Assembly: GCA_012031265.1 (NCBI GenBank)
Contig: JAAUTY010000001.1
Span: forward strand, 186,001 to 250,000
Source: Spirulinaceae cyanobacterium SM2_1_0
Lineage (GTDB): Bacteria > Cyanobacteriota > Cyanobacteriia > Cyanobacteriales > Spirulinaceae
Reading direction: 5' to 3'
DNA length: 64,000 nt
Shown here: in pieces, positions 2,623-64,000 of the stretch
How positions within the stretch are numbered: position 1 is the stretch's first letter
Layout: every line of letters starts with the position of its first letter
Notes under the pieces: generated by a model
The model's input: only the letters and a program-made list of their open reading frames with translations
What the model was told of the DNA's origin: nothing
Database searches by the model: none
Program-made: the position numbers and the translations under genes

Positions 2623-3852
2623 GTGGATCAGTCCGCTCTCTGGCTGCTACTTTTGCCTCCGGTCGCAGGGGGCATTATTGGCTATTTCACCAATGACCTC
2701 GCCATTCAAATGTTGTTCCGGCCCTATCGGGCGCTCTATCTGGGCAAACAACGCCTCCCTTTCACCCCCGGACTGATCCCCCGCAACCAAGAACGTCTTG
2801 CCCGTCGTGTTGCCGACACGATCATGTCGTCCTTGCTGACGCCGCAGGAGTTGCAAAATCTGACCCGGCGACTGCTGGCAACCGAGCGTGTCCAGGGCGC
2901 GATCCTCTGGTTACTACGGTTGGCGCTGGAACAGTTGCAGAGCGATCGCGAAGAAAAAACCGCTCGCCTTGTCGCCGAAGTTCTGCGTGACCTTGCCGGT
3001 GACTCCGTGCCGCGCCTGCTGCGTGCCCTTGCCCGCCGCGAAGACTTTCTCGAAGATCAGATCAACCGCATCTTCGACCGGGTGCTGCTCGACTTTCAGC
3101 TCACCGACCTGCAAGCCCGCCGCCTTGCCGATTGGTTGCTGCAAGTGGCGCTACCGCCTGACCTGCTCCGCCAAGCCCTGATCGATTTCCTCACCGACCG
3201 CAACATCCAAGTAGTTGATGAGGGCTTCCGTGAAAAAACCACCGGCACCACCTGGGTTGTTGCCAACCTTGTCGGCATCCGCAATACGCTTGTCCGCCTG
3301 CGCGCCTTCTGTCTGGATGAAAAGGAGATTGCCAACGCGCGCCTGAAAGAACTGATTCTCTCGCTGGAAATTCGCGATCGCCTGCGCGTCTGGCTACAAG
3401 ACATCTCACTGCAAAACCTCCCCCTCTCCACCGTCCGCCAGTTCCGTAAAACTACACGCGCCACTGTTCGCGACTACGTGGCCGAAAAGGGTAGTCCTTT
3501 GATTCAAGAACTCAGTGCCTCGGTTGACTGGGAGCGCATCGCTCTGCTGTTGATCCGGCGTCTGCGCACCTCAGCGGTCGTCGATTCCTCACTGGAAACC
3601 GTCAGCCTCGAACTGGCGATGATCCTAGAGCGCTATCTCGAAGAAGACCTCGAGCATTTGGTGGCGAAGCTAATTCCGATTCTGTCCATTGATGAAGTCG
3701 TCGTCGAGCGGGTGATGGCGACCTCGCCCGCCGAACTCGAAGCGACGATCCAGGGCATCGTCCGTAGCGAGTTGCAAGCGATCGTCAACCTTGGCGGGGT
3801 TCTCGGTGTCGTGGTCGGCAGCGTCCAGTCAGTAATTCTCTGGTTGCGCTGA
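2623..3852 (+). CDS. DUF445-family membrane protein
   Basis: This 409-residue protein belongs to the DUF445 (YheB/YjiN-like) family of unknown function. It starts at a GTG (2623). The hydrophobic segment at residues 5-21 runs into the family hallmark [15 protein letters not shown], then [13 protein letters not shown]. The middle is long and helix-rich with many charged residues. A second hydrophobic segment (about 385-408, ending [10 protein letters not shown]) closes the protein, so both ends are probably anchored in a membrane with the middle on one side. The last 24 bp overlap the 3' end of the convergent stpA gene. Confidence 0.88.
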
Positions 3853-5139
3853 GGCTGTTTTGCCCACCGCGCGCCGCTGTGCGGCGGTGATGAATAGCTC
3901 AATGTACTGACGATGCCCACCAGGAATTACGGCGTCCAGGACCAACGGGTCATCGGTGTCACGCGGGTCACCCGGCCCGGCGATCGCCCGCTTTTTCCCC
4001 CCTGCTTCGATCAGCTTCAGCGGTCGCCGGTTTTTCACTTCCCCACCGCTACTGTCCACATAGATCACCAGGCTGCCACGCTGGAAGTGGTGGTCGATCG
4101 CCTGGATCAGCGCGAGAAAGTTGCGATCGCTCCCCCCGCGCCGCACCGCCGGCCCAGTGGCGGTGTCTACGACTTGGCTGGTCACCGTATCGCCGACGCC
4201 GACTAGCACCGGCATCGCCGCCGGGTCAAAATGCTGACGCACCAGCGCCAGCAGTTCCGCTTGTGATTTGGGCGCTTCGCGGACGCTGAAGTTTTCACCG
4301 AGCGGATACTGCCCAGTGCGTTGATGATAGTAACGATTGAGCAGCGCCAGCACCCCGGCCTCCTTGATCGCGCCGCGCAACATGAACTGAAAATCGGTCG
4401 TGCCGGAGTCGCCCGCCGTCGCCGGTTTCAAGCGCTCCAATCCCTGAGCGTCACGGCCCCAGTTCGGTGCGTAGTGAACGAAGAAGGACTCGCCCAAGCC
4501 TTGTTCCCCAGCTTTGACCAGAAGTGTTTCCATCAGGCTCTGCATGGTTTGCTGCAAAGCGGGGTAGAGCGTGGCGCGATCGCCCAGCCGTTCGTAAAAG
4601 GTGTTCAGATTAGCGCTGGGCGAGGCGACATTATCGAGCACACTGGCGGCGATCGCCGTTTCCGTCTCGGCTGCCGACCAAGCGGTTAAATCGTCGGCGC
4701 AAAACGCGGCTAACCGCGCCTGAATTTGCTCCGGTACGGCCGCCAGAAACGCTAGCTCGGCTGAGCTAACACCCGGATGGGACACGACCCCATCCCGCTC
4801 CTGCCACTGCACGCCGCCCGCTGCCAGGCCTGGTAAGTAGCCGACTTCAGCCAATGGTTGTCCAGCTGCCTGTGCCGCCCGCTCAATAATGCCATTGACG
4901 CCCCGTCGGCCGATATGCTCGCCATTGGTCAGGACGTAGAAATGACCGTCAAACTGTTGGGTGGCGTGCACATAGTCGAGATCAATTTCCCGCTGCAAGG
5001 GATCTTTGACCAAGCCCATGCAGACACCATCCAGGTCTTGGATCAGCAACAGATTTTCGGTTTCAGCCAGAATCTGGGCAAGACGTGCCTGGTTCAGCGA
5101 GAGCGGCGGTTCCTGAAGCAGCGGATGCAGTGAGGTCAT
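3829..5139 (-). CDS. stpA: Glucosylglycerol-phosphate phosphatase
   Basis: StpA dephosphorylates glucosylglycerol 3-phosphate, the last step in making the compatible solute glucosylglycerol used by salt-tolerant cyanobacteria. The 436 residues match my recollection of Synechocystis StpA almost block for block: [15 protein letters not shown] near residue 32 (DxDG, HAD-like), [76 protein letters not shown] and [12 protein letters not shown]. The partner synthase ggpS is not in the window. The gene ends inside the tail of the convergent DUF445 gene. Confidence 0.93.
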
Positions 5140-5280
5140 AAGTTCTCAGGTCTTGGCGTGGGCAAATTGCTTGGCAGAGTGAGTTGGCATCCGAGCGACC
5201 CCACTCTATCCCGGTCGGTAGTGGTTGGGCAATGGCTGGGGGGGCGGGCTGGGCGGCGATGATTGGGGATCTCTAGCCAT

Positions 5281-5309
5281 TTCACGAGCGGGATGGCAGG
5301 CTCTACAAT
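5281..5309 (+). promoter_or_regulatory. Candidate sigma70-type promoter of the methyltransferase gene
   Basis: TTCACG (5281-5286), a 17-bp spacer, and TACAAT (5304-5309) fit the -35/-10 pattern with 4/6 and 5/6 matches. A start near 5316 would leave a leader of about 32 nt before the ATG at 5348. Confidence 0.45.
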
Positions 5310-5347
5310 AATGGGGATAAATTCGTTACAAAACTTCACATCACCCC

Positions 5348-5992
5348 ATGCTGCTGCGACCTGAGCAACGCGAGAAACTTGATCCCGCTGATGATCGGGA
5401 CTTCTACAGCCTGCCCCGCTTCGTCACCCACGTAGACGACCACTTCATTGACCAATTGACGCAACTGTACCGCGATCGCCTCCAGCCGCAGACCCGCATC
5501 CTCGATCTGATGAGCAGTTGGGTGTCGCATCTGCCGGAGGAGATCGAGTTTGCCCATGTCGAGGGACATGGTATGAATGCGGCGGAGCTGGCGAAAAATC
5601 CGCGCCTGGATCACTACCAGGTGCAAAACCTCAATGCTGACCCGAAGCTCCCTTATCCTGACGCTGATTTTGATGCGGTACTGAACTGTGTTTCGGTGCA
5701 GTATTTGCAATATCCCGAAGCGGTGTTTAGCGAGGTGGCGCGGGTGCTAAAACCCGGCGGCGTGGCGATTGTGAGTTTTTCCAATCGGATGTTTTATCAG
5801 AAGGCGATCGCCGCCTGGCGGGATGGCGGTGAAACCAGTCGCGTGGCTTTGGTGAAGCGCTACTTTCAAGCGGTTCCTGAATTTGGCCCGCCGGAGATCA
5901 TCGCTAACGCGGGGGGTGTCCCAAATATTTTCCAGCTCCTCGGCTTTGGCGGTGCTGACCCGTTCTACGCTGTACTCGCCCAACGGCAATAG
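5348..5992 (+). CDS. SAM-dependent methyltransferase (class I, type 11)
   Basis: This 214-residue protein has a Methyltransf_11-type core. ILDLMSSWVSHLP (about residues 50-62) takes the place of motif I. VEGHGMNAAEL follows as the strand-2 region. DADFDAVLNCVSVQYL (about 105-120) matches motif IV, and EVARVLKPGGVAIVSFSNRMF is the typical post-motif helix-strand. Motif I lacks the usual GxGxG glycines, a variation seen in a cyanobacterial and plastid subgroup. The substrate is unknown. It is divergent from stpA, with a candidate promoter in the gap. Confidence 0.85.
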   Translation: MLLRPEQREKLDPADDRDFYSLPRFVTHVDDHFIDQLTQLYRDRLQPQTRILDLMSSWVSHLPEEIEFAHVEGHGMNAAELAKNPRLDHYQVQNLNADPKLPYPDADFDAVLNCVSVQYLQYPEAVFSEVARVLKPGGVAIVSFSNRMFYQKAIAAWRDGGETSRVALVKRYFQAVPEFGPPEIIANAGGVPNIFQLLGFGGADPFYAVLAQRQ

Positions 5993-6199
5993 TTCTGGGG
6001 CCGGAATGGGGACTGTCACACAGGATCTATTTCGCGCAGTGAAAATGCAAGGATTTGCCCATGACGCCACTGTTCGTTACTAATTAGGTTTAGGAGGTTG
6101 ACAAATCCGATTGCACGATTAGCAATTTTCGGATGTCTAGCGGCTCGACGCTGGACTGTCCCCCAATGATTGATTACCGTGGAGAATTTGGAGATCCCT

Positions 6200-55425: not shown

Positions 55426-55482
55426 ATCTGCAAAGCTTCTGTAGTTATATCAATTTAACGCAAGTGATCGCTTACTTATACT

Positions 55483-55657
55483 GTAACTATTCAGGTCATG
55501 GGGTTGCGTTGAGAGGCAATCTGTGCATTTAGGCAGCAGATCTCTCAAAAATGTATCTTTGGACACGAAATCCAGTCTTGGAGCGACTAGATCTAACTTT
55601 TTCGGGGTTGACTGCACAAAAAAGTCACCCTGTCAATGCCAGCACCTGAATAGTTAC
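55483..55657. repeat. 175-bp segment bounded by 13-bp inverted repeats
   Basis: GTAACTATTCAGG (55483-55495) and CCTGAATAGTTAC (55645-55657) are perfect inverted repeats. The right one overlaps the stop codon of the transposase fragment. The interior has no reading frame of note. It may be a MITE or the end of a decayed insertion sequence. Confidence 0.55.
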
Positions 55658-55785
55658 TGCTTGAGTAACTTCACGATAAAGCTCAGGGCTACCCGAAACC
55701 GCTTGGCTAACTGACGCTGCGAAATGGGTTCATTCTCGTAGGTCTCAAGGATTTTCTGCCGTAAATCCGTGCTGTAAGCTTTCAT
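55654..55785 (-). pseudogene. IS630-type transposase, N-terminal remnant
   Basis: The frame from ATG 55785 gives MKAYSTDLRQKILETYENE, then PISQRQLAKRFRVALSFIVKLLKQ and a stop: 43 residues matching the helix-turn-helix start of IS630-family (Tc1/mariner-like) transposases found in cyanobacteria. The DDE catalytic domain is gone. The stop lies in the right arm of the 13-bp inverted repeat, so the truncation coincides with that element's edge. Confidence 0.75.
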
Positions 55786-55871
55786 CTCACCCCTTTGATT
55801 CTTTCCTCTTTGGGTGTATCACACTTTTACTCAATCTGCTCTAAGAACAGTCACTACCAAGATGATAAGCC

Positions 55872-55959
55872 AGCTAACGTTGCCCATCACCCGCCGCAGA
55901 TAAACCTTGATATTCATAGATAACCTTTCGGCGGTCGGTGTGCATGGGCATTGTTAGGC
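55872..55959 (-). other. attC-like site 1
   Basis: The outer arms AGCTAACGTTGCCCAT and ATGGGCATTGTTAGGC pair with few mismatches, ending in the GTTAGGC (GTTRRRY) core. The inner arms are CACCCGCCG and CGGCGGTCGGTG. Total length is 88 bp. It lies about 50 bp beyond the 3' end of the P-loop gene, as expected for a cassette. Confidence 0.72.
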
Positions 55960-56009
55960 TATGACTACTTGCCTCAAGAAATTTATGAGCTGATCAGGAC
56001 TGTCTGAGT

Positions 56010-56552
56010 TCATCTCTTGGATAACGGGATGTTGGCTTGCACTGCGATGGTTTGGTAGAACTGATCGATGTCTTGAGGCGATCGCAAATGATAAACCTGC
56101 TTTGTTACCTTCGCGTGCTCCACATATTCCCGGTATTTGGGCGTTAGTTTGGTATGGCATAGCCAGACGGTATAGTAACTGTTCAGCGTGCCTCGTAAAA
56201 GTGGACTGTTTTCCGGCCAGCCAGCAGGCAACACCCAGCCCCCTTGTAGGAATCGTTTCGTGACCCACCAGTAGTGCAGCAATACTGGCATATCGAGATA
56301 CACCAGGGTATCGGCCACTTCTAGTCGTCGCCATGCGGTATCCAGGGAGCCAAAGCCATCCACAATCCACTGGTCTTGTTGCAGCAACACATCGTGGGCG
56401 GCTTTGAACTCGGCATGGGGGACTTCGTCGCCACCGGGTTTGTATTTCATGGAATCGAGCGGCACCCAGGGAAGCCCTGTCATATCCGCCAAACGTTGGC
56501 TGAGAGTAGACTTTCCCCCGCCCGCATTGCCAAAGACAGCAACTTTTTTCAT
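56010..56552 (-). CDS. P-loop NTPase, adenylate-kinase/topology-modulation-like
   Basis: This 180-residue small P-loop protein begins KKVAVFGNAGGGKSTLSQRLA (Walker A GNAGGGKST). GLPWVPLDSMKYKPGG, QWIVDGFGSLDTAWRRLEVADTLVYLD and FLQGGWVLP match the family annotated as adenylate kinase-like or DNA topology modulation (FlaR) proteins. Real substrates are unknown; a small-molecule kinase is likely. It is the last gene of cassette one, 22 bp after the DUF1772 gene, with attC-like site 1 beyond its stop. Confidence 0.83.
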   Translation of the reverse strand: MKKVAVFGNAGGGKSTLSQRLADMTGLPWVPLDSMKYKPGGDEVPHAEFKAAHDVLLQQDQWIVDGFGSLDTAWRRLEVADTLVYLDMPVLLHYWWVTKRFLQGGWVLPAGWPENSPLLRGTLNSYYTVWLCHTKLTPKYREYVEHAKVTKQVYHLRSPQDIDQFYQTIAVQANIPLSKR

Positions 56553-56574
56553 GGGTTTTTCCTCATCGTATCTA

Positions 56575-57069
56575 TTAAAGCTTGAATTCCATGCTGATCA
56601 ACAGCGCTGACGTAAGAATTGCGAGTATAGTCCTGATAGAGTTCCATTGAATCCAGCGCGGTTCAAAATTCACTCGAACCTCTCGTAATGCAAGGTCAGT
56701 CATCGCATCGAGCTTCTGCATTTGTAGCTGATTATTCAACGGCACATTAATAGTAAAGATGGGCAATTGAACGCCGAGCAAATAAATAGCTGCAGCAGTA
56801 CCGATGAGCAGTCGATTAACGCCATCGAACTGAACCATACCAATCAGGGCCGCCGCTACCAATCCCAAAATTGACCCCAGCCAGACCAAACTAAAGATCG
56901 GTTGATTATTTTGAATGACGCGATCGATCGCTTTGAAAGCTTGAAGAAAATCGTGGTCGTCCAGGTTTCTAATGCCTGGCATCACAACAATAGCGAAAGC
57001 CAGCACAAAACCTGCAACTAGGGAACACAATAATGTTGCCAGTGTTAATGCAATTTGAAGTAGATCCAT
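56575..57069 (-). CDS. DUF1772-family membrane protein
   Basis: This 164-residue membrane protein has four hydrophobic segments (about 5-31, 58-80, 85-106, 143-160). AIVVMPGIRNLDDHDFLQAFKAID after the first helix is the DUF1772 signature, and NVPLNNQL in the third loop is also typical. The family includes fungal anthrone-oxygenase-like proteins, but bacterial roles are unknown. It is part of the cassette that carries an AraC regulator and an NmrA-like reductase. Confidence 0.83.
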   Translation of the reverse strand: MDLLQIALTLATLLCSLVAGFVLAFAIVVMPGIRNLDDHDFLQAFKAIDRVIQNNQPIFSLVWLGSILGLVAAALIGMVQFDGVNRLLIGTAAAIYLLGVQLPIFTINVPLNNQLQMQKLDAMTDLALREVRVNFEPRWIQWNSIRTILAILTSALLISMEFKL

Positions 57070-57177
57070 GACTTGTCCTCTTGGTAGTGTAGGGTTCGGT
57101 AAATGTTTCCAGATAGTTATGGTGCGAGCAGTACGTTCGCGAAGCGTTGCAAGCAGATCACACTGCCCTGAAGTCGA

Positions 57178-57558
57178 TTAGACGGGTTTGAGACGCAGCA
57201 GGAAAACAACACACAACCCGCCAATTGCCAGTTCTACCACCGCTGCTGCTATCAGCGAGGATGACGGCAATCCGTCCAACCCCATACTGAGCAGCCGCGA
57301 GAGGCCAAATGAGCCATAGACGATCGCACTTAGTATCAGTGGGGTTTGCGTCATGCTCTGCCGGAAGGCACCTAGCAGGATAGCGATCGCACATCCGATC
57401 AGCAGACCGCCCGGAGCCCTGATCTCTGACAATAGGCCGGGGTCGTTTCCTAACGTGATGCCCTCTGTGGCAAAGAAGGCATGAGGTTGCAACAACGTCG
57501 CAGTTCCGACAAGGAGCAGAAGCACTCCAGAAACGCTCAGTAGAATCCGATTCATCAT
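57178..57558 (-). CDS. Small four-helix membrane protein, DUF4345-like
   Basis: The ATG at 57558 shares its A with the TGA stop of the upstream NmrA-like gene (TGATG), indicating translational coupling. The 126 residues have four hydrophobic segments (ILLSVSGVLLLLVGTATLL, APGGLLIGCAIAILLGAF, LILSAIVYGSFGLSRLL, LIAAAVVELAIGGLCVVFLL). The FATEGITLG...IRAPGG pattern recalls DUF4345. No function is known. The longer reading frame upstream of this start overlaps the NmrA gene and is rejected. Confidence 0.72.
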   Translation of the reverse strand: MMNRILLSVSGVLLLLVGTATLLQPHAFFATEGITLGNDPGLLSEIRAPGGLLIGCAIAILLGAFRQSMTQTPLILSAIVYGSFGLSRLLSMGLDGLPSSSLIAAAVVELAIGGLCVVFLLRLKPV

Positions 57559-58424
57559 CAGACAGTTAGGGTAACCCCCCTCCATAGACCTGTGGCAGCC
57601 ACCGCTTTGGCATACTCTGCAAAATCTTTGGGTGGGCGGCCTAAGGCACGCTGAACGCCATCGATGAGGTGGGCGTTGCGGCCATCCAGCACCGTGTTGA
57701 ACAGGTAGTCCAACATCCAAACCACTTCTTTAGGCGCACCTGATTCTTTAACGCCAGCCACAAAGGCGTCGTGGGGAACGGAAATATAGGTAATCTCACG
57801 GCCAGTGGCGTTTGACAATTCAGTGGCAATGTCAGCGAAGGTCATCAGGCGAGGGCCAGTGACTTCGTAGACTTCTCCGGCATGCCCCGGCTCTGTAAGC
57901 GCAGCGACGGCGACCTCAGCGATGTCGTCCACATCGACAAAGGGTTCTGCGATATCGCCTGCCGGGAGCGTGATTTGACCATCCACGACCATATCGAGAA
58001 ACGCGCCTTCCGAGAAGTTTTGGTTGAACCAGCTCGCCCGCACAATCGTCCATTCCACACTGCTCTCCTGCACGATCCGTTCACAGGCTTGGGCTTCGGC
58101 TTCCCCCCGACCCGACAGGAGCACTAGGCGCTGGACGCCATGGCGCTTGGCTCGATCGACAAACGCCTGAATCGCATCCGTTGCCCCCGGCATAGCAAGA
58201 TCGGGTGCGTAGTTGATGTAGACAGCTTCAACATCTTGCAGGCAAGCATCCCATCCAGCCTCATGGTGCCAATCAAAAGCTGGAGTCGCTGAGCGCGAAC
58301 CCATCCGAGTCGGTACGCCCTTTGCCTGTAAGGAAGCGGCAATGCGTCGGCCTGTTTTGCCAGTGCCACCGAGAATGAGGGTCACTCCGCTTAAATTTTG
58401 AATTTGATCGTGAATCGTGTTCAT
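57558..58424 (-). CDS. NmrA-like NAD(P)-binding reductase (atypical SDR)
   Basis: This is a 289-residue atypical short-chain dehydrogenase/NmrA-family protein with an N-terminal Rossmann loop LILGGTGKTGRRIAASL. VYINYAPDL, LVLLSGRGEAEAQACE, WTIVRASWFNQNFSEG and PFVDVDDIAEVAVAALTE are the family blocks. It lacks the YxxxK catalytic pair of classical SDRs. I chose the ATG at 58424, preceded by AAGGGAAGC. Homologues are often next to AraC- or HxlR-type regulators and act as redox sensors or quinone reductases; the substrate here is unknown. Confidence 0.88.
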   Translation of the reverse strand: MNTIHDQIQNLSGVTLILGGTGKTGRRIAASLQAKGVPTRMGSRSATPAFDWHHEAGWDACLQDVEAVYINYAPDLAMPGATDAIQAFVDRAKRHGVQRLVLLSGRGEAEAQACERIVQESSVEWTIVRASWFNQNFSEGAFLDMVVDGQITLPAGDIAEPFVDVDDIAEVAVAALTEPGHAGEVYEVTGPRLMTFADIATELSNATGREITYISVPHDAFVAGVKESGAPKEVVWMLDYLFNTVLDGRNAHLIDGVQRALGRPPKDFAEYAKAVAATGLWRGVTLTV

Positions 58425-58531
58425 AGCTTGCTTCCCTTCGTGGGTTAACTGCAAGCTCACTATAGGAAGTCTGACCCAGGCATTTCTTGACAGCCGCTGC
58501 CGAAATTTTGACCTGACGCGCCAAGGTCAAT

Positions 58532-59545
58532 TTAAGTCGATTTGGAGGGGGGGCTCAGGCGAAACGATCGCGGCGTTTGCCCGGCCCAGCGCTTGAATGC
58601 CCGCGTGAAGGCACTTTGTTCGGAAAATCCCGTCATGAAAGCCACTTCCGCCAGGGAATAGTCGGTCTGCTGCAAAAGCCGTTCAGCTAACTGACGTCGT
58701 GATTCATCTACCAGGGTTTGATAGGAGTAGCCCAGTTCAGATAGTCGGCGTTGTAACGTGCGCCCGCTCATGCTGAAGTGCCCCGCGACATCCGAGATCG
58801 TGGGCACGCCTTCACTCAAGCATCGCGAAACGTGAATGCGAACCCAGTGTTCGAGGGAATTGGGGTCTGCCAGTTTAGAAAGCTCAGCCTCTAGATGGGT
58901 ATCGAAAAACTGGGAAATACTTTCGTCACCGAGCTGATTAGGGGTCTGTAGCGATGTATGGGAAACCAACAACGCATCTCTATCTGAGTCAAAGTGAATT
59001 GGACAGCCAAAATAGGCTTCATGCCCCTCGATGCGTTTAGGGGCAGGATGCTTGAAATAAACAGCCAGCGGTGTGAACGGCTGGGTGGAAACTTGCTGAC
59101 TGATGGAAACGATGCTGGCGATTGTGGCCTCATTGGAAAGCCGCATCCCCAGGTGGCGATCGCCCTCTCGGTGCAGGTGCATAAATGCTCCCTGGTCTAC
59201 CCGCTCCACTTCATAGGTCGAAACGCTCGTCAGCACACGGGCATAGCGTTCTGCCCGTTCATAAGAGCCGCGCAGATTCGTAGCGGACTTCCAGGCTAAG
59301 CCAAAAGCACCGTAATCATCACAACGCATGGCCGCTCCCGCTCTGAGTGGCAGAGTTGTGCCATTGGTTTCGGCTGTCGCAATCCTTTCTAAAAAGGCAT
59401 AGTAGTCTGCTGCAGGCACCATGTGTGAGGGGTCAACGGGGCTGTCTGGCTCAATGCCGAGCGATTGCAATAAGGCATCTTTGTCGATGCCATCTTCGAC
59501 TTCTCCAACGACCTTCCTAACGAATAACGAGGTAATTTGTCCCAT
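58532..59545 (-). CDS. AraC-family transcriptional regulator (Arabinose_bd-type N-terminus)
   Basis: This 337-residue regulator has two parts. Residues about 20-205 form the OruR/ArmR-type ligand-binding domain (GAAMRCDDYGAFGLAWKSATNLR, PLAVYFKHPAPKRIEGHEAYFGCPI, given for location). Residues about 240-335 are the AraC double helix-turn-helix (VPTISDVAGHFSMSGRTLQRRL, YSLAEVAFMTGFSEQSAFTRAFKRW). It lies 107 bp upstream of the NmrA-DUF4345-DUF1772 genes on the same strand and probably controls them. It is the first gene of cassette one, close to attC-like site 2. Confidence 0.92.
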   Translation of the reverse strand: MGQITSLFVRKVVGEVEDGIDKDALLQSLGIEPDSPVDPSHMVPAADYYAFLERIATAETNGTTLPLRAGAAMRCDDYGAFGLAWKSATNLRGSYERAERYARVLTSVSTYEVERVDQGAFMHLHREGDRHLGMRLSNEATIASIVSISQQVSTQPFTPLAVYFKHPAPKRIEGHEAYFGCPIHFDSDRDALLVSHTSLQTPNQLGDESISQFFDTHLEAELSKLADPNSLEHWVRIHVSRCLSEGVPTISDVAGHFSMSGRTLQRRLSELGYSYQTLVDESRRQLAERLLQQTDYSLAEVAFMTGFSEQSAFTRAFKRWAGQTPRSFRLSPPSKST

Positions 59546-59630
59546 TCAACGAGAATATCTTTTTTTCTCCAACATCAAGTCAGACTTTGGTGACAGACGA
59601 TGCATTACTTCTGTAGCAAAAAACAAAGCC

Positions 59631-59716
59631 GCCTAACGGTGAAGTGCAGCGGCGGCAAGCAACTTTGGACTAAGCACCAGCATTTTTCGTCCGTCCGCTG
59701 CCACGCAGTGTTAGGT
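59631..59716 (-). other. attC-like site 2
   Basis: The outer arms GCCTAAC (59631-59637) and GTTAGGT (59710-59716) extend to AGCCGCCTAAC/GTTAGGTGGCT with one mismatch. The inner arms GTGCAGCGGCGG and CCGTCCGCTGCCAC pair with one extra T in the right arm, that is, an extra A in the first arm read on the minus strand. That asymmetry is a hallmark of attC and agrees with the minus-strand gene direction. It lies 11 bp after the restriction gene's stop. Confidence 0.8.
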
Positions 59717-59727
59717 GGCTGTTTCCT

Positions 59728-60696
59728 CTACAAACTGCATAACCAGCGAGAAATGGATGCAACCTGGTTCTCCTCATTTAAGTTTGCAGCATTACTGAGC
59801 GTCCCGCTTTCTAGTTGTTCCCAAATTTCACCAGCCATCCTTCTCTCGATCGCTGCTCCCACAAAAAATGTAAGAGGTGAATGACCAGCATCAGCGAATG
59901 CTTGTCGTATGCGATTGAGTGCCGCTTGTGCCGTTTTCCAGTGTTCGTCAGCACCCGCTGGATCAATTCCACCCTTCAGTTCCCCCAAAGCAACTGTATA
60001 AGGCTCAACCTCAACAGGTTTGATCTTGCTGGACTTATTTACTGGCAGTGCATCTGGAGCAAGATTGAACAAACAGAGATCTACATTACTCTTGACTAAT
60101 GGGATATTTAGGTTGTAGATAAGTGTACGTCTACCATAATCACTTTCCCAAGTTAGTCCACGTAAAGACAATTCAATTTCTGCATCATCGTTTGTCATTG
60201 CTATCCACTTTTTTGTCTTTGAATGTTGCCAATGATATCGTTGACCTGCAATTGTAAGACTTGAGAGGATAGCACGAGTCAGTTTCCTTTGAGCCATCGC
60301 TCCACCAACATTCCGCATTGAACCGCCAAGCGTATCCCCGCGAGTCAATAGAAATCTAAAGACTAATTCCTCCACAAAGTTTGCACCTGCTGGTTCAAGA
60401 AAGTTTTTGATTAAACCGTTAATCGCGTCAACTTTATCCTCCGGCATCAAATGAGCGAGAGACTTGTCAGATAATCCTGCCGCAGTCAGTAATCCCATCT
60501 CAATACCCTGAATGCTTAGCAAATCAGCAGGGTTTTTAGCTTGATTTGCCGCCTCTTGCAGCGCCCTTGCTTCTGCCACATAAGGGGTAGCTCGTCGATT
60601 CTTTTCAAGCGCAAGTGCTACAAACCCTGCACGAGTTGCCTCATAGGTTGTAATAAGATCATCAATAGACTGAAGATGATTACGATAGGTACTCAT
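59728..60696 (-). CDS. Type II restriction endonuclease, AvaI/BsoBI family
   Basis: This 322-residue protein matches the AvaI/BsoBI family (target CYCGRG), whose members are 315-323 residues. The block [26 protein letters not shown] (108-132, quoted for position) is characteristic. Active-site residues are visible: D206 in SNVDLCLF, E239 and K241 in GELKGG, and H252 in DEHWK. The E-x-K-x10-H spacing equals that of BsoBI as I remember it (E240, K242, H253). The partner methyltransferase gene ends 9 bp upstream on the same strand. The pair fills one integron-like cassette. Confidence 0.88.
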
Positions 60697-60705
60697 AAGA
60701 TTGGG

Positions 60706-62139
60706 TTACTGCTTTTTCCATACGTAAACGCACTTTCTTAAAGGATCACGACCATGATTTCCCATTTGCTGGCTACTGTTACCCTTGTTGCCAGGTAAAA
60801 CGAGGATATTTTCAACTATAAAACCTAGTTTCTCTGCAAAGTCAGAGAGGATCATATCCACTGAAATACTTACGCCAGAGTAACGCACATTGTCATTGAC
60901 CATAAACAAAAGTGCTCCAGGTTTAAGTACGCGAGAACACTCTTGTATAACGCAAGCCATTTCGTAAAAATAACCTCTTACCATTCTGGGTATTCCGTTA
61001 TTATTCAATACACCTTGAAGCTTCTGATCATCTAAATAGCTCAAAATAGATTGCAATAGAGTTTGTGAATTTGCAACTTCTACAGCCAAGTTCCAATTTG
61101 GATTAATAGTCAGCAAGTCCTTTGAGCGATTTTCGACTGTGCAGCTTAACATTTCTTGTCTGAGATCGATAAGTCTCTTTTCCGAAATATTTAACAAAGC
61201 AAGCTCTAGTGCATAAGTGCGAGTGTAGTCATACCGATTGCAATATGGTGGAGACGTAATCACAGCATCATAGACTGCATCAGGTAAAGTCGGTAGCAAT
61301 TTGAGGCAGGATCCTTTGTAAAGCTGAATTTCACCTTGAGATCGCTTAACGGGAAAAAGTTCTACTTGATGAGTAGAAGGTTCTAGATCATTGATAATTT
61401 CTTCGATTTTCCTAGTGATCGCATAATCAAAATCCAAGATCTCACCTTTGTTGAAAAGCTTCTTTCCTTGTCCACGACCAGAACGATGATCCCAGCGGAG
61501 GTATTGCCCATCTTTGCGAGTGTAACTTACAGACTCCAGAACACAAAGCAAAGCAAAGAGTAAAACTTCTCGAACCCTTTCATTTTCCTGAGACAGAGCA
61601 CCAAGGTATTGCTCAATTAATCTCCTGTTCTCTATAGAATACGCGCCTTTTGTAATCCTAAATTCTGGTAGACAGAATTCTTGTTCAAACTGTTTCCATA
61701 TCTGGAATTTTAACCAAGTCTTTAAGCGTTCAAGATCATCAGATGTAAATTCGATATCGAGAATATTCTTCGTTTCAATAATTTGTTGACCAATAGGTAA
61801 CAATTCAATACCATTAGCATCAAACCCCAAATCAGTAGCAGCAAATAAAGCAGTTCCGCTACCTGCAAAAGGATCTAGTATCTTGCCCTGACTAAGCTCA
61901 TATTTTTGAAGTAAAAGCTCAACAAGAGAAGCAGAGAAGGCTTCTTTATACTTGTACCAACGGTAAATAGGTCTTGTTTTATTAGCTTGAAAACTGACTA
62001 AAAGCCTAGTAAGGGCAGGCTGAACTAGAAACTTAGCTTGAAAATAATGTTGTAATTGTTTGTCAAGTTTATCAATTTCTCTAAGGTCACCATTTTGCAC
62101 TTCAGGAGCGATATCGGAGATGCTTGATAGACTTGTCAC
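60706..62139 (-). CDS. DNA methyltransferase of the AvaI-like system (amino-methyltransferase)
   Basis: This 477-residue type II modification enzyme has the SAM-binding motif DPFAGSG at 89-95 and the catalytic TSPPY at 295-299. The (T/S)PPY form indicates methylation of an exocyclic amino group (N4-cytosine or N6-adenine); N4-cytosine is expected for an AvaI partner. The motif order I...IV differs from the beta-class order. A long spacer between the motifs probably holds target recognition. It precedes the restriction gene by 9 bp, so methylase is made first. Its A+T-rich codon use differs from the core genes to the left. Confidence 0.9.
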
Positions 62140-62261
62140 AAGTATCAGACCCTATGAAATATGAACCTGCTTATTATATCAGTGCGTCCAGTATTCTGCC
62201 GAATCCAGGCGGGCTACATTGTATAGCTCATCAATATTGCCCTAACAGGTATGTGGAAGCC

Positions 62262-62347
62262 AGCTAACGGTGAAGTTGTGCGGCGGCAGATGACCTCGAA
62301 TTCTCACCAATAACCTCTGTACCGTCCGCACCAACGCAGTGTTAGAG
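62262..62347 (-). other. attC-like site 3
   Basis: The arms CCAGCTAACGGTGAAG and CGCAGTGTTAGAGGGCTGG enclose GTTGTGCGGCGG and ACCGTCCGCACCAAC, with the same extra base in the right arm as sites 2 and 4. It lies 15 bp after the ParE-like toxin gene's stop and about 120 bp upstream of the methyltransferase start. Confidence 0.75.
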
Positions 62348-62362
62348 GGCTGGCAGCTTCGA

Positions 62363-62653
62363 TTACTTGCGGCTTTTCCAGTAACCAGGCTCACGGCTGC
62401 AATGCATGACCGCCAAAATCAAAATGTAGTCTTGCTCAATTGTATAGAGAACGCCATAAGGAAACTTACGTGCCATACAACGCCGAACATCTTCATCAAT
62501 CGCAGCATAGCGGGTTGGGGCTTCCCTGATCCGATAAACCGTATCCTCGATAGCATTTATGAACGCTTGAGCAACCTCAACCCTCTGCTCGGTATAGTAT
62601 TGAACTGCTTCAGCATACTCACTCAGTGCTTCAGGATGAAATACATACTTCAT
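62363..62653 (-). CDS. ParE/RelE-family toxin
   Basis: This is a 96-residue ParE-type toxin. The start MKYVFHPEALSEYAEAVQYY, the central IREAPTRYAAIDEDVRRCMARKFPYGVLYTIEQ (key: RRCMARKFPYGVLY) and the end ILAVMHCSREPGYWKSRK are all canonical. Relatives inhibit gyrase or cut mRNA. It overlaps the antitoxin gene by 4 bp (ATGA) and is the last gene before attC-like site 3, a common position for stabilising modules in integron arrays. Confidence 0.9.
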   Translation of the reverse strand: MKYVFHPEALSEYAEAVQYYTEQRVEVAQAFINAIEDTVYRIREAPTRYAAIDEDVRRCMARKFPYGVLYTIEQDYILILAVMHCSREPGYWKSRK

Positions 62654-62880
62654 GGCTCGATCAGCCGTCTGACCTGAGCTAGAGCATCTTCACCTAGAAT
62701 TGGTTGAATAGAACCATTTCGCACCTCATCTCTTCGGCGCTTGGCTTCAGTTACCCAAACTGCCTGAATTGCTGGGTCGGTATCGAACTCCAAGCTTTCC
62801 ACTAACTTGTCTGCTAGGAGTGCTCTTGACTCACTAGGCAGGGATAATATTTCCTCAGTCAGTTGCTCAATTGACCGCAT
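62650..62880 (-). CDS. Addiction-module antitoxin (TIGR02574-like)
   Basis: This 76-residue antitoxin has the family pattern IEQLTEEILSLPSESRALLADKLVESLE, followed by VWVTEAKRRRDEVRNGSIQPILGEDAL (key: W...EA..R..E...G), typical of the short antitoxins that pair with ParE/RelE toxins. It starts at the ATG at 62880 and precedes the toxin with a 4-bp overlap. Confidence 0.88.
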   Translation of the reverse strand: MRSIEQLTEEILSLPSESRALLADKLVESLEFDTDPAIQAVWVTEAKRRRDEVRNGSIQPILGEDALAQVRRLIEP

Positions 62881-62986
62881 AATATCAAGCTCTTACAGAA
62901 AACTGGTTCTCAAATAATTGTATCAAAATCCGACAGGAGAAGAACTTCATTAAGCAGGCGTTCACCGCAGAGACTATATGGGGCGG

Positions 62987-63670
62987 TCAAAACTCCAAAA
63001 CACGAAGTCGAGACAAACCTGCCTGTGTTGCAAGCTCTGGAAAATTCTTCTGTACTTCCTCAAGCGTTAAAGGTGGATCTGGATCAATATCAAGATTTGC
63101 ACCTATCAATCTGGCACATCCATAATCTGCGCGATGAATCCAATTGTGATAGACAATATACCGACTGTCTGCAATTTGATAGAGTTCGTAAGAATGTGGA
63201 CTCAAAGAATCTTTGTAAATCACATACTCAGCAATTAACTGTGCCTTGAACTGAATAATTTCAATTGTTACAGGGTAGTTTGCATAGTTAGACCAGAGCG
63301 TACCAACCTCCTTTTCTATAAGTTCTATATCTTGACCGTTGGGGATTAAGTTTAATGGGTGCTTCTCATCATCATTAGGTCTAAGCTCAGGGTCAAAGGT
63401 TTCATAATATTTCCACCAAGCATCGCGATGTTTCCTTAACTCAGTAGCAGCGTATTTTGTACCGCGAGGATGGCGTGGATTATAGTGCCCTGCTTCTGCG
63501 TGGCATTTGAAGCAGAGAACAATAGCATTTTCTAAATCGTTAGAACCACCATCAGCTTCTTGAATAATGTGGTGTACTTCTGCATTACGACCTGCGTGTT
63601 CATGACATACACAGCAGTACCGGCCTGATTTAACTAGCGCAGTTTCCCTTATATCTTTTGGAAAAGGCAT
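62987..63670 (-). CDS. HNH endonuclease-domain protein
   Basis: From the ATG at 63670 (MPFPKDIRETALVKSGR) this is 227 residues. The N-terminal HNH domain has zinc cysteines C19/C22 and C53/C56 (RYCCVCHEH, VLCFKCHAEA), the catalytic HH at 33-34 (EVHHI) and the Asn of GGSNDLENAI. The remaining 150 residues have no motif I know. It may be a defence or mobile-DNA nuclease. It heads cassette three and is separated by about 105 bp, with no attC, from the toxin-antitoxin pair. Confidence 0.85.
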   Translation of the reverse strand: MPFPKDIRETALVKSGRYCCVCHEHAGRNAEVHHIIQEADGGSNDLENAIVLCFKCHAEAGHYNPRHPRGTKYAATELRKHRDAWWKYYETFDPELRPNDDEKHPLNLIPNGQDIELIEKEVGTLWSNYANYPVTIEIIQFKAQLIAEYVIYKDSLSPHSYELYQIADSRYIVYHNWIHRADYGCARLIGANLDIDPDPPLTLEEVQKNFPELATQAGLSRLRVLEF

Positions 63671-63834
63671 CCCGAAACCTCTCAGCCACCGCTCATCCAA
63701 CTATATTGCTAGCACAGAAAGTTGACTTAGTGCTTCCAATAACTTTGAAGTACCGCCGCGTCCTGATTTCAGGCTGATTGGTCTTGGCAATCACAGATAA
63801 GCTAACGGCTACGCCCCCACCGATAGCTGAAGCC

Positions 63835-63921
63835 GCCTAACGTTCCCCTTCAGCGGCGGCAAGTAGCCTCAAACTCAGCACCGACGACTTGCAACCGTCC
63901 GCTGCAAGGGGGTTGTTATGC
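63835..63921 (-). other. attC-like site 4
   Basis: GCCTAAC (63835-63841) and GTTATGC (63915-63921) are the outer boxes. GTTCCCCTTCAGCGGCGG and CCGTCCGCTGCAAGGGGG form the stem, with the extra T in the right arm. A further half-site-like GCTAACGGCTACGCCCCCACC lies just left of it at 63801. Bases 63922-64000 show nothing recognisable; the 63671-63834 stretch holds only the upstream region of the HNH gene. Confidence 0.76.
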
Positions 63922-64000
63922 TTTTCAACCGAGAACTTTGATTTGAGAGAAATCATTCAAAATCAACTCCTAAACCCTAAACTCTACACCATATTATTAC

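Follow-up and report, generated by a model that had tools for sequence, protein, structure and literature searches.

The stretch analysed here (the window) comprises 64,000 nucleotides of one contig, C47 (positions 186,001 to 250,000), of Spirulinaceae cyanobacterium SM2_1_0, whose draft genome of 5.03 Mb lies in 149 contigs and is rated 99.98% complete. Towards the right-hand end of the window, ten minus-strand genes are divided by four attC-like recombination sites into groups of five, two and three, referred to here as cassettes A, B and C (Table 1). An earlier note, made from the sequence alone, had described this region as an integron-like array with multigene cassettes and, having seen no integrase, had suggested that it might be a cluster of attC sites lacking an integron integrase (CALIN). 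The results described below lead us to the same reading, that the array is a CALIN, consisting of integron cassettes without an integrase, in a cyanobacterium, and we give this a probability of roughly 0.93.

Table 1. Features of the cassette array, in order of position in the window
Feature	Position	Strand	Remarks
attC site 1 (3' end of five-gene cassette)	55869..55962	-	cut G55878/T55877; R1 87.4 bits, R2 69.4 bits (E 1e-10)
Cassette A	55878..59636	-	3759 bp, five genes; between cut points of sites 2 and 1
P-loop kinase-like protein	56010..56552	-	AAA_28 below curated cut-off; relative annotated adenylate kinase
DUF1772/anthrone-oxygenase-like membrane protein	56575..57069	-	PF08592 E 4e-12
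DUF4345 protein	57178..57558 (longest open reading frame 57178-57720)	-	PF14248 E 2e-24
NmrA-like NAD(P)-binding protein	57558..58460	-	PF13460, PF05368; GTG start of longest open reading frame, later ATG 58424
AraC-family regulator	58532..59545	-	PF12625, PF12833
attC site 2	59628..59719	-	cut G59637/T59636; R1 87.4 bits, R2 83.6 bits
Cassette B, two-gene type II restriction-modification unit	59637..62267	-	2631 bp; homology to G094, G303
AvaI/BsoBI-type restriction endonuclease	59728..60696	-	PF09194 E 5e-168; PADLOC REase_II
DNA methyltransferase of cassette B	60706..62139	-	GTG start; PADLOC MTase_II E 7e-158
Promoter-like site, extended -10 TATAAT, cassette B leader	62173..62202	-	sequence prediction and conservation
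attC site 3	62259..62350	-	cut G62268/T62267; R1 82.5 bits, R2 87.0 bits
Cassette C	62268..63840	-	1573 bp, three genes; between cut points of sites 4 and 3
ParE-type protein of toxin-antitoxin pair	62363..62653	-	PF05016 E 2e-11
Antitoxin (Unstab_antitox)	62650..62880	-	PF09720 E 4e-15
HNH endonuclease-like protein	62987..63700	-	PF01844 E 2e-8
attC site 4 (part of next cassette upstream)	63832..63924	-	cut G63841/T63840; R1 90.1 bits, R2 82.7 bits

The attC sites were scored with two covariance models: R1, built from 13 sites of the same genome including the window's four, and so circular for those, and R2, built from 40 sites that all came from other genomes. R2 recognised all four sites where the earlier note had placed them, at 69-87 bits (E values 1e-10 to 5e-14), and had no match at E<=0.1 on the plus strand of the window. 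R1 gave weak plus-strand matches at two of the four (18.6 and 16.2 bits, compared to 87 and 90 on the minus strand). All four have TAAC...GTTA ends with the minus strand as sense strand, and the TAAC/GTTA pairs are invariant in the 13 own-genome sites that were aligned, four of them from the window. Across these 13 sites 17 pairs are predicted, nine of which have changed in both partners with the pairing retained. The orientation of the sites is fixed by two invariant 5'-arm bases (columns 20 and 28 of alignment A1) that remain unpaired, as had been claimed from the asymmetry, and the ten genes agree with it. Inverted ends (R''/R') and an inner stem (L''/L') with unpaired bases in one arm are present, and each site begins just past the 3' end of a gene (about 47, 8, 12 and 72 nt downstream of a stop codon for sites 1 to 4). 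Folding of the single strands, a check that the earlier note had proposed, favoured the bottom strand in two sites, was equal in one (-18.5/-18.4 kcal/mol) and went the other way in the fourth. Rfam had no match to the attC sites at gathering scores. As a rough negative control, R1 was run on 80 loci picked by their NmrA protein (0.91 Mb) and returned nine matches at E<=1, six of them within three cyanobacterial loci and the remaining three no better than E 0.1. The array exceeds the window edge: past site 4 the same contig has a 420 aa gene of the next cassette upstream (L003 13998-15260) and two further attC sites (L003 15286-15378 and 17413-17506). Contig C47 therefore carries six sites, 1.5 to 3.8 kb apart, where a CALIN is defined by at least two nearby attC.

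No integron integrase above the cut-off of 265 bits was found when the genome was searched with the TIGR02249 profile, and the best match, on contig C29, is a XerC-like protein (74.7 bits); at the array itself the contig end limits the view upstream. A complete integron, with intact intI, attI and an array, was thus not found, and the nearest thing to it is an N-terminal remnant at the end of contig C146 (16830-17100; L095), which resembles a decayed start of the IntI of genome G094. It begins MQPPPKKLLD, identical to the start of the G094 protein, agrees with that intI at 71/101 nt (E 6e-9 when the two sequences alone are compared) and 20/36 aa, and is disrupted by a stop and an apparent frame shift. 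We read this stretch as the probable remains of intI. The search for more attC that the earlier note had called for returned 35 sites at E<=0.1 with R1, for which 150 of 2070 first-look candidates were scored; by our own count 29 of these reach E<=1e-7, on 17 contigs, and 13 of the 29 are the sites on which R1 was trained.

From established integron biochemistry, a cassette here would be a DNA circle of one to five genes with one attC site. The tyrosine recombinase IntI would fold the bottom strand of attC into a hairpin and would recombine it at G|TT with one of three partners: attI, another attC or a secondary chromosomal site. In this genome the cassettes may have been inserted by the integrase of the decayed contig-end remnant, or by one acting in trans, and the array would now be fixed unless an integrase arrives.

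The point of joining could be followed for cassette B. A search of 388 genomes of the order for its endonuclease gave matches in 60, this genome included. When 30 of the endonuclease loci were scanned for attC, six (again including our own) had a site 8 nt past the stop codon and one more had a site about 1 kb further on. In genome G094 the homology to the window runs from 62268, the G of G|TT, to 59634 (84% over 2647 columns), ending three bases beyond the cut of site 2, within the common GTTA, and the sequences outside differ; here the same cassette, with the same ends, directly adjoins the region upstream of an intact divergent intI (L298 7257-8219, 471 bits), which is the place of attI. 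In G303, a one-contig chromosome, the cassette begins at the same G and the local alignment stops within its attC, from the GTT of which the sequence is unrelated. This copy sits inside a ParE-like gene, of which one part matches Pfam ParE at E 0.003, short of the curated cut-off, and the shorter part not at all. No attC model match was found upstream of the cassette in the stretch examined (L299); the target is neither attI nor attC, as in attG-type insertion. The same G|TT start of cassette B is therefore seen in three settings: in this array, next to an intact intI and within a ParE-like gene. Since the frequency of GTT is only about 0.02 per base, chance coincidence of the ends is unlikely. 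Recombination at G|TT is marked at site 3 by the junctions in G094 and G303 and at site 2 by that in G094, and is read from the sequence itself at sites 1 and 4. At the level of sequence comparison, these copies show that cassette B moves as a unit, and the comparison at the cut point proposed in the earlier note has borne out its two-gene cassette.

Three other loci (L300, L302 and L303) have copies of cassette B with partial or degenerate ends. Carriage on plasmids was considered and discarded, as three plasmid records match, none over 80% of the cassette, and the match to a Kovacikia plasmid is the attC stretch alone. That site, on the 1.2 Mb plasmid pA of Kovacikia minuta (Leptolyngbyales), lies at L317 4005-4096 and scores 76.9 bits.

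Upstream of the methyltransferase gene, the TATAAT of the cassette B leader is present in 7/7 aligned copies, two of which had been excised by that word after it was first sighted. Promoter-like and terminator-like sites were rarer than in shuffled sequences, so that the case for a promoter in this leader rests on its conservation; on this basis cassette B is probably expressed from its own conserved promoter.

Large parts of cassette A are found at 85-89% nucleotide identity at two loci of other genomes, L097 and L098, and within the cassette the gaps between genes are no more than about 110 nt. In L097 (Nodosilinea sp. LEGE 07088) four of the five genes are flanked by two attC sites, with 89% over 3025 columns. 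L098 (strain CCP3) has all five genes, the kinase gene with a large internal deletion, and an attC after the kinase gene that aligns with site 1 (81% over 170); no attC was found at the upstream end of this unit before the contig ends. The 3' end of cassette A is shared with L098 and the leader following the cut with L097, and no single genome has both ends together with all five genes. A search with the NmrA protein gave a long list, and of its best 80 loci 58 have AraC less than 1 kb upstream of NmrA in the same orientation, and three have an attC at E below 1e-6. Copies of the AraC-NmrA operon at 74-82% nucleotide identity have no attC in the fetched stretch in Richelia, on a Calothrix plasmid and on a Picosynechococcus plasmid. 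As the operon is known without attC, it would therefore seem to have become part of a cassette, and how genes acquire attC becomes directly comparable. As a putative mobile unit, the five-gene cassette A is well supported.

Several details of these relatives are recorded here as separate observations. By eye, L097 appears to have a piece of a methyltransferase gene at the position of the kinase in the window. L100 (strain CCP5) has an attC upstream of the operon and a second, weak match that separates AraC from NmrA; the latter (3377-3471, 27.2 bits) is within a stretch of ~580 nt that is missing from the window copy. On plasmid pREC3 of Acaryochloris marina, typed as conjugative, a relative of the kinase gene lies beside a methyltransferase gene with no attC in the stretch (L316 4001-5165). 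Group II intron ends (Rfam RF00029) are found upstream of the cassettes in L097 (185-267) and L098 (1-72), and L098 has a further multigene interval between two attC (3682-6189) with genes for a YCII-like protein, a glutathione S-transferase and a sigma factor-like protein.

To the left of the array, thrC-moaD is kept in 9/9 relatives fetched (thrC is present in 12), and in none of the nine does the stretch of about 6 kb past moaD contain an attC at E<=1. The sites are thus not conserved in all relatives as ordinary intergenic repeats, the outcome that the earlier note had named as its refutation. An empty site at the locus was unreadable, as the sequence after moaD differs among the nine. Beside the 3' end of the array, at 55472-55668 and 55654-55785 of the window, inverted repeats of 35 nt (77% complementary) enclose a short frame and resemble an insertion-sequence remnant. 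A transposase suspected by reading at 55654-55785 has no support from Pfam.

Relatives of this organism hold both parts of the system. Within its family (13 genomes including its own), an integrase above the cut-off is present in four, one with a stop, and attC at E<=0.1 in ten. In a sample of 243 genomes of the order, attC was detected at E<=1e-4 in 159 and an integrase match at E<=1e-30 in 46, with 24 above the cut-off; these counts are rough, as they come from draft assemblies under stricter filters with at most 17 candidates scored per genome. By our own count 8 of the 24 best integrase matches carry a stop or are fragments; 23 of the 24 genomes with an above-cut-off integrase have attC, and 136 of the 159 attC genomes show none above the cut-off (hand count). 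At intact intI loci that were inspected, attC lies on the divergent side in 12/13, in two of them by weak matches (L313, 40 bits; L315, 24 and 26 bits); the intact intI of G145 has no attC, and L309 has an additional weak match on the other side. One locus, G201:C1:4486109-4498212 (L233, L234), has three intI copies in a row, two stop-free and one with stops, with attC nearby. The earlier suggestion of a CALIN is supported by intact divergent intI with attC in relatives, by the R2 scores of the array and by a genome search that found no intI beyond a remnant.

Spacing and strand were examined at 44 loci that had been picked because they bear attC. Neighbouring attC less than 6 kb apart are on the same strand in 90/91 cases, and the median interval is 1574 bp (92 intervals below 8 kb). 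Among the 90 same-strand intervals 45 have at least two sense open reading frames (of at least 100 aa), 13 at least three and 14 none, counts that come from a crude finder and would be inflated by any attC that the model missed. A possible, though tentative, generalisation is that the integrons of this order are operon carriers, with cassettes that are often multigene and have their own promoter or regulator, integrases that come and go, and cassettes that spread to many chromosomal sites, host genes among them. On such a scheme operon cassettes would need no cassette promoter and could be useful wherever they landed, because they bring their own promoter or regulator, and most genomes would keep attC and few intI because integrases come and go while cassettes spread.

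Several points weigh against the reading of the array as a CALIN of multigene cassettes. With 149 contigs in the draft and 11 of the 29 best attC less than 1 kb from a contig end, intI could sit in a gap, although it would not be expected to be a repeat. The C146 remnant is short (~36 residues), with a genome-wide E of 0.13 when a relative's IntI is the query and 2e-4 for a closer one, the IntI of G094. L097 has another stretch in place of the kinase gene, so that cassette A varies in its 3' part, and G219 (L301) has both genes of cassette B without attC. For cassette C, judged by its HNH protein only, no close relative was found among the 388 genomes, where that protein has four partial matches at 45-49% identity outside its own genome; the three-gene cassette of the earlier note is a putative mobile unit.

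How the sites came to be scattered over 17 contigs is a separate matter. They may derive from one large array broken by insertion sequences, instead of from separate off-target insertions, and this has a sizeable minority chance: contig C27 opens with the end of an ISL3 transposase, some 1 kb ahead of an attC. However, 11 contigs break upstream of an attC and then run for more than 5 kb without another, which would hardly be expected from one broken array, and the lone cassette inside the ParE-like gene of G303, with its G|TT ends, is an off-target insertion, albeit in another genome. An attempt to join attC contigs through shared ends (18 ends compared) gave matches of 74 to 95% only and no join. 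The G303 insertion speaks for off-target integration as one of the ways in which scattered arrays arise.

The multigene intervals themselves could be single-gene cassettes fused by loss of the intervening attC, and not captured operons. Fused cassettes have been described in class 1 integrons (PMC4670013; papers are cited here and throughout from excerpts), the kinase gene of cassette A is found apart from the operon on the Acaryochloris plasmid and is replaced in L097, and cassette C combines a toxin-antitoxin pair with a seemingly unrelated HNH gene. We nevertheless consider this unlikely, as the AraC-NmrA pair is common without attC, the genes of cassette A are closely spaced, and restriction and modification genes belong together and have moved as a whole in cassette B. 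It is improbable that the arrays are parts of a complete integron whose intI is present in the organism and was lost from the assembly: the closeness of attC to contig ends favours this, and the effect of drafts is warned of in PMC9024848, but no IntI above the cut-off was found in the genome, only a decayed N-terminus, and genomes of the order in few contigs also have many scattered attC, some with only a truncated intI (7 to 49 sites each, scattered chromosome-wide among the places listed, in 12 genomes of 1 to 10 contigs chosen for attC). That the stem-loops are ordinary dispersed repeats, for which this same scatter might speak, can be dismissed as highly improbable given the same-strand rule of 90 to 1, the position after stop codons, intI beside attC in relatives, the junctions at G|TT and the locus free of attC in all nine relatives.

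Integrons have mostly been studied as single-gene resistance platforms of Gammaproteobacteria, and restriction-modification cassettes are known from other integrons. What makes the present case of interest is the combination of operon cassettes, scatter over the chromosome without an intact integrase and a natural off-target insertion in another genome, with cassettes that carry an operon with its regulator and a restriction-modification pair with its own promoter-like leader. In the excerpts available, one survey drew 93% of its complete integrons from Gammaproteobacteria (PMC9024848), integrons are reported in Cyanobacteria (PMC2426708, PMC8618304), for which an attC model exists (PMC8352920, PMC9176274), cassettes with two open reading frames are known, some of them toxin-antitoxin (PMC8618304), and PMC12444791 and PMC12901181 describe CALINs away from the integron locus, integron activity that is lost progressively, and attG sites. 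Among the matches listed in the open-licence literature, none deals with operon cassettes in Cyanobacteria or with scattered CALINs there; the primary papers of 2016 and 2024 for CALIN and attG lay outside this coverage. Cyanobacterial integrons are thus already known, and operon cassettes scattered over a chromosome without an intact integrase are an uncommon variant.

Like known CALINs, the array has several attC in one orientation, spaced within the 4 kb default of IntegronFinder, no intI nearby and relatives with full integrons; it differs in the size of its cassettes, which reach five genes and 3.8 kb, and in the arrays or single sites on 17 contigs with no intact intI found. With the chromosomal integron bearing cyanobacterial attC (PMC8352920, in excerpt) it shares attC of the same phylum and relatives with intact intI and attC, but it has no intact integrase. 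The fused cassettes of class 1 integrons (PMC4670013) also have more than one gene per attC, moved together, whereas the units here are operon-like, with a regulator or their own promoter, and are not two resistance genes. As in the attG insertions described in excerpts of PMC12901181 and PMC12444791, the cassette of G303 has a G|TT junction with a target other than attI or attC, a likeness at the level of description, and it differs from them in being a natural event with a two-gene cassette.

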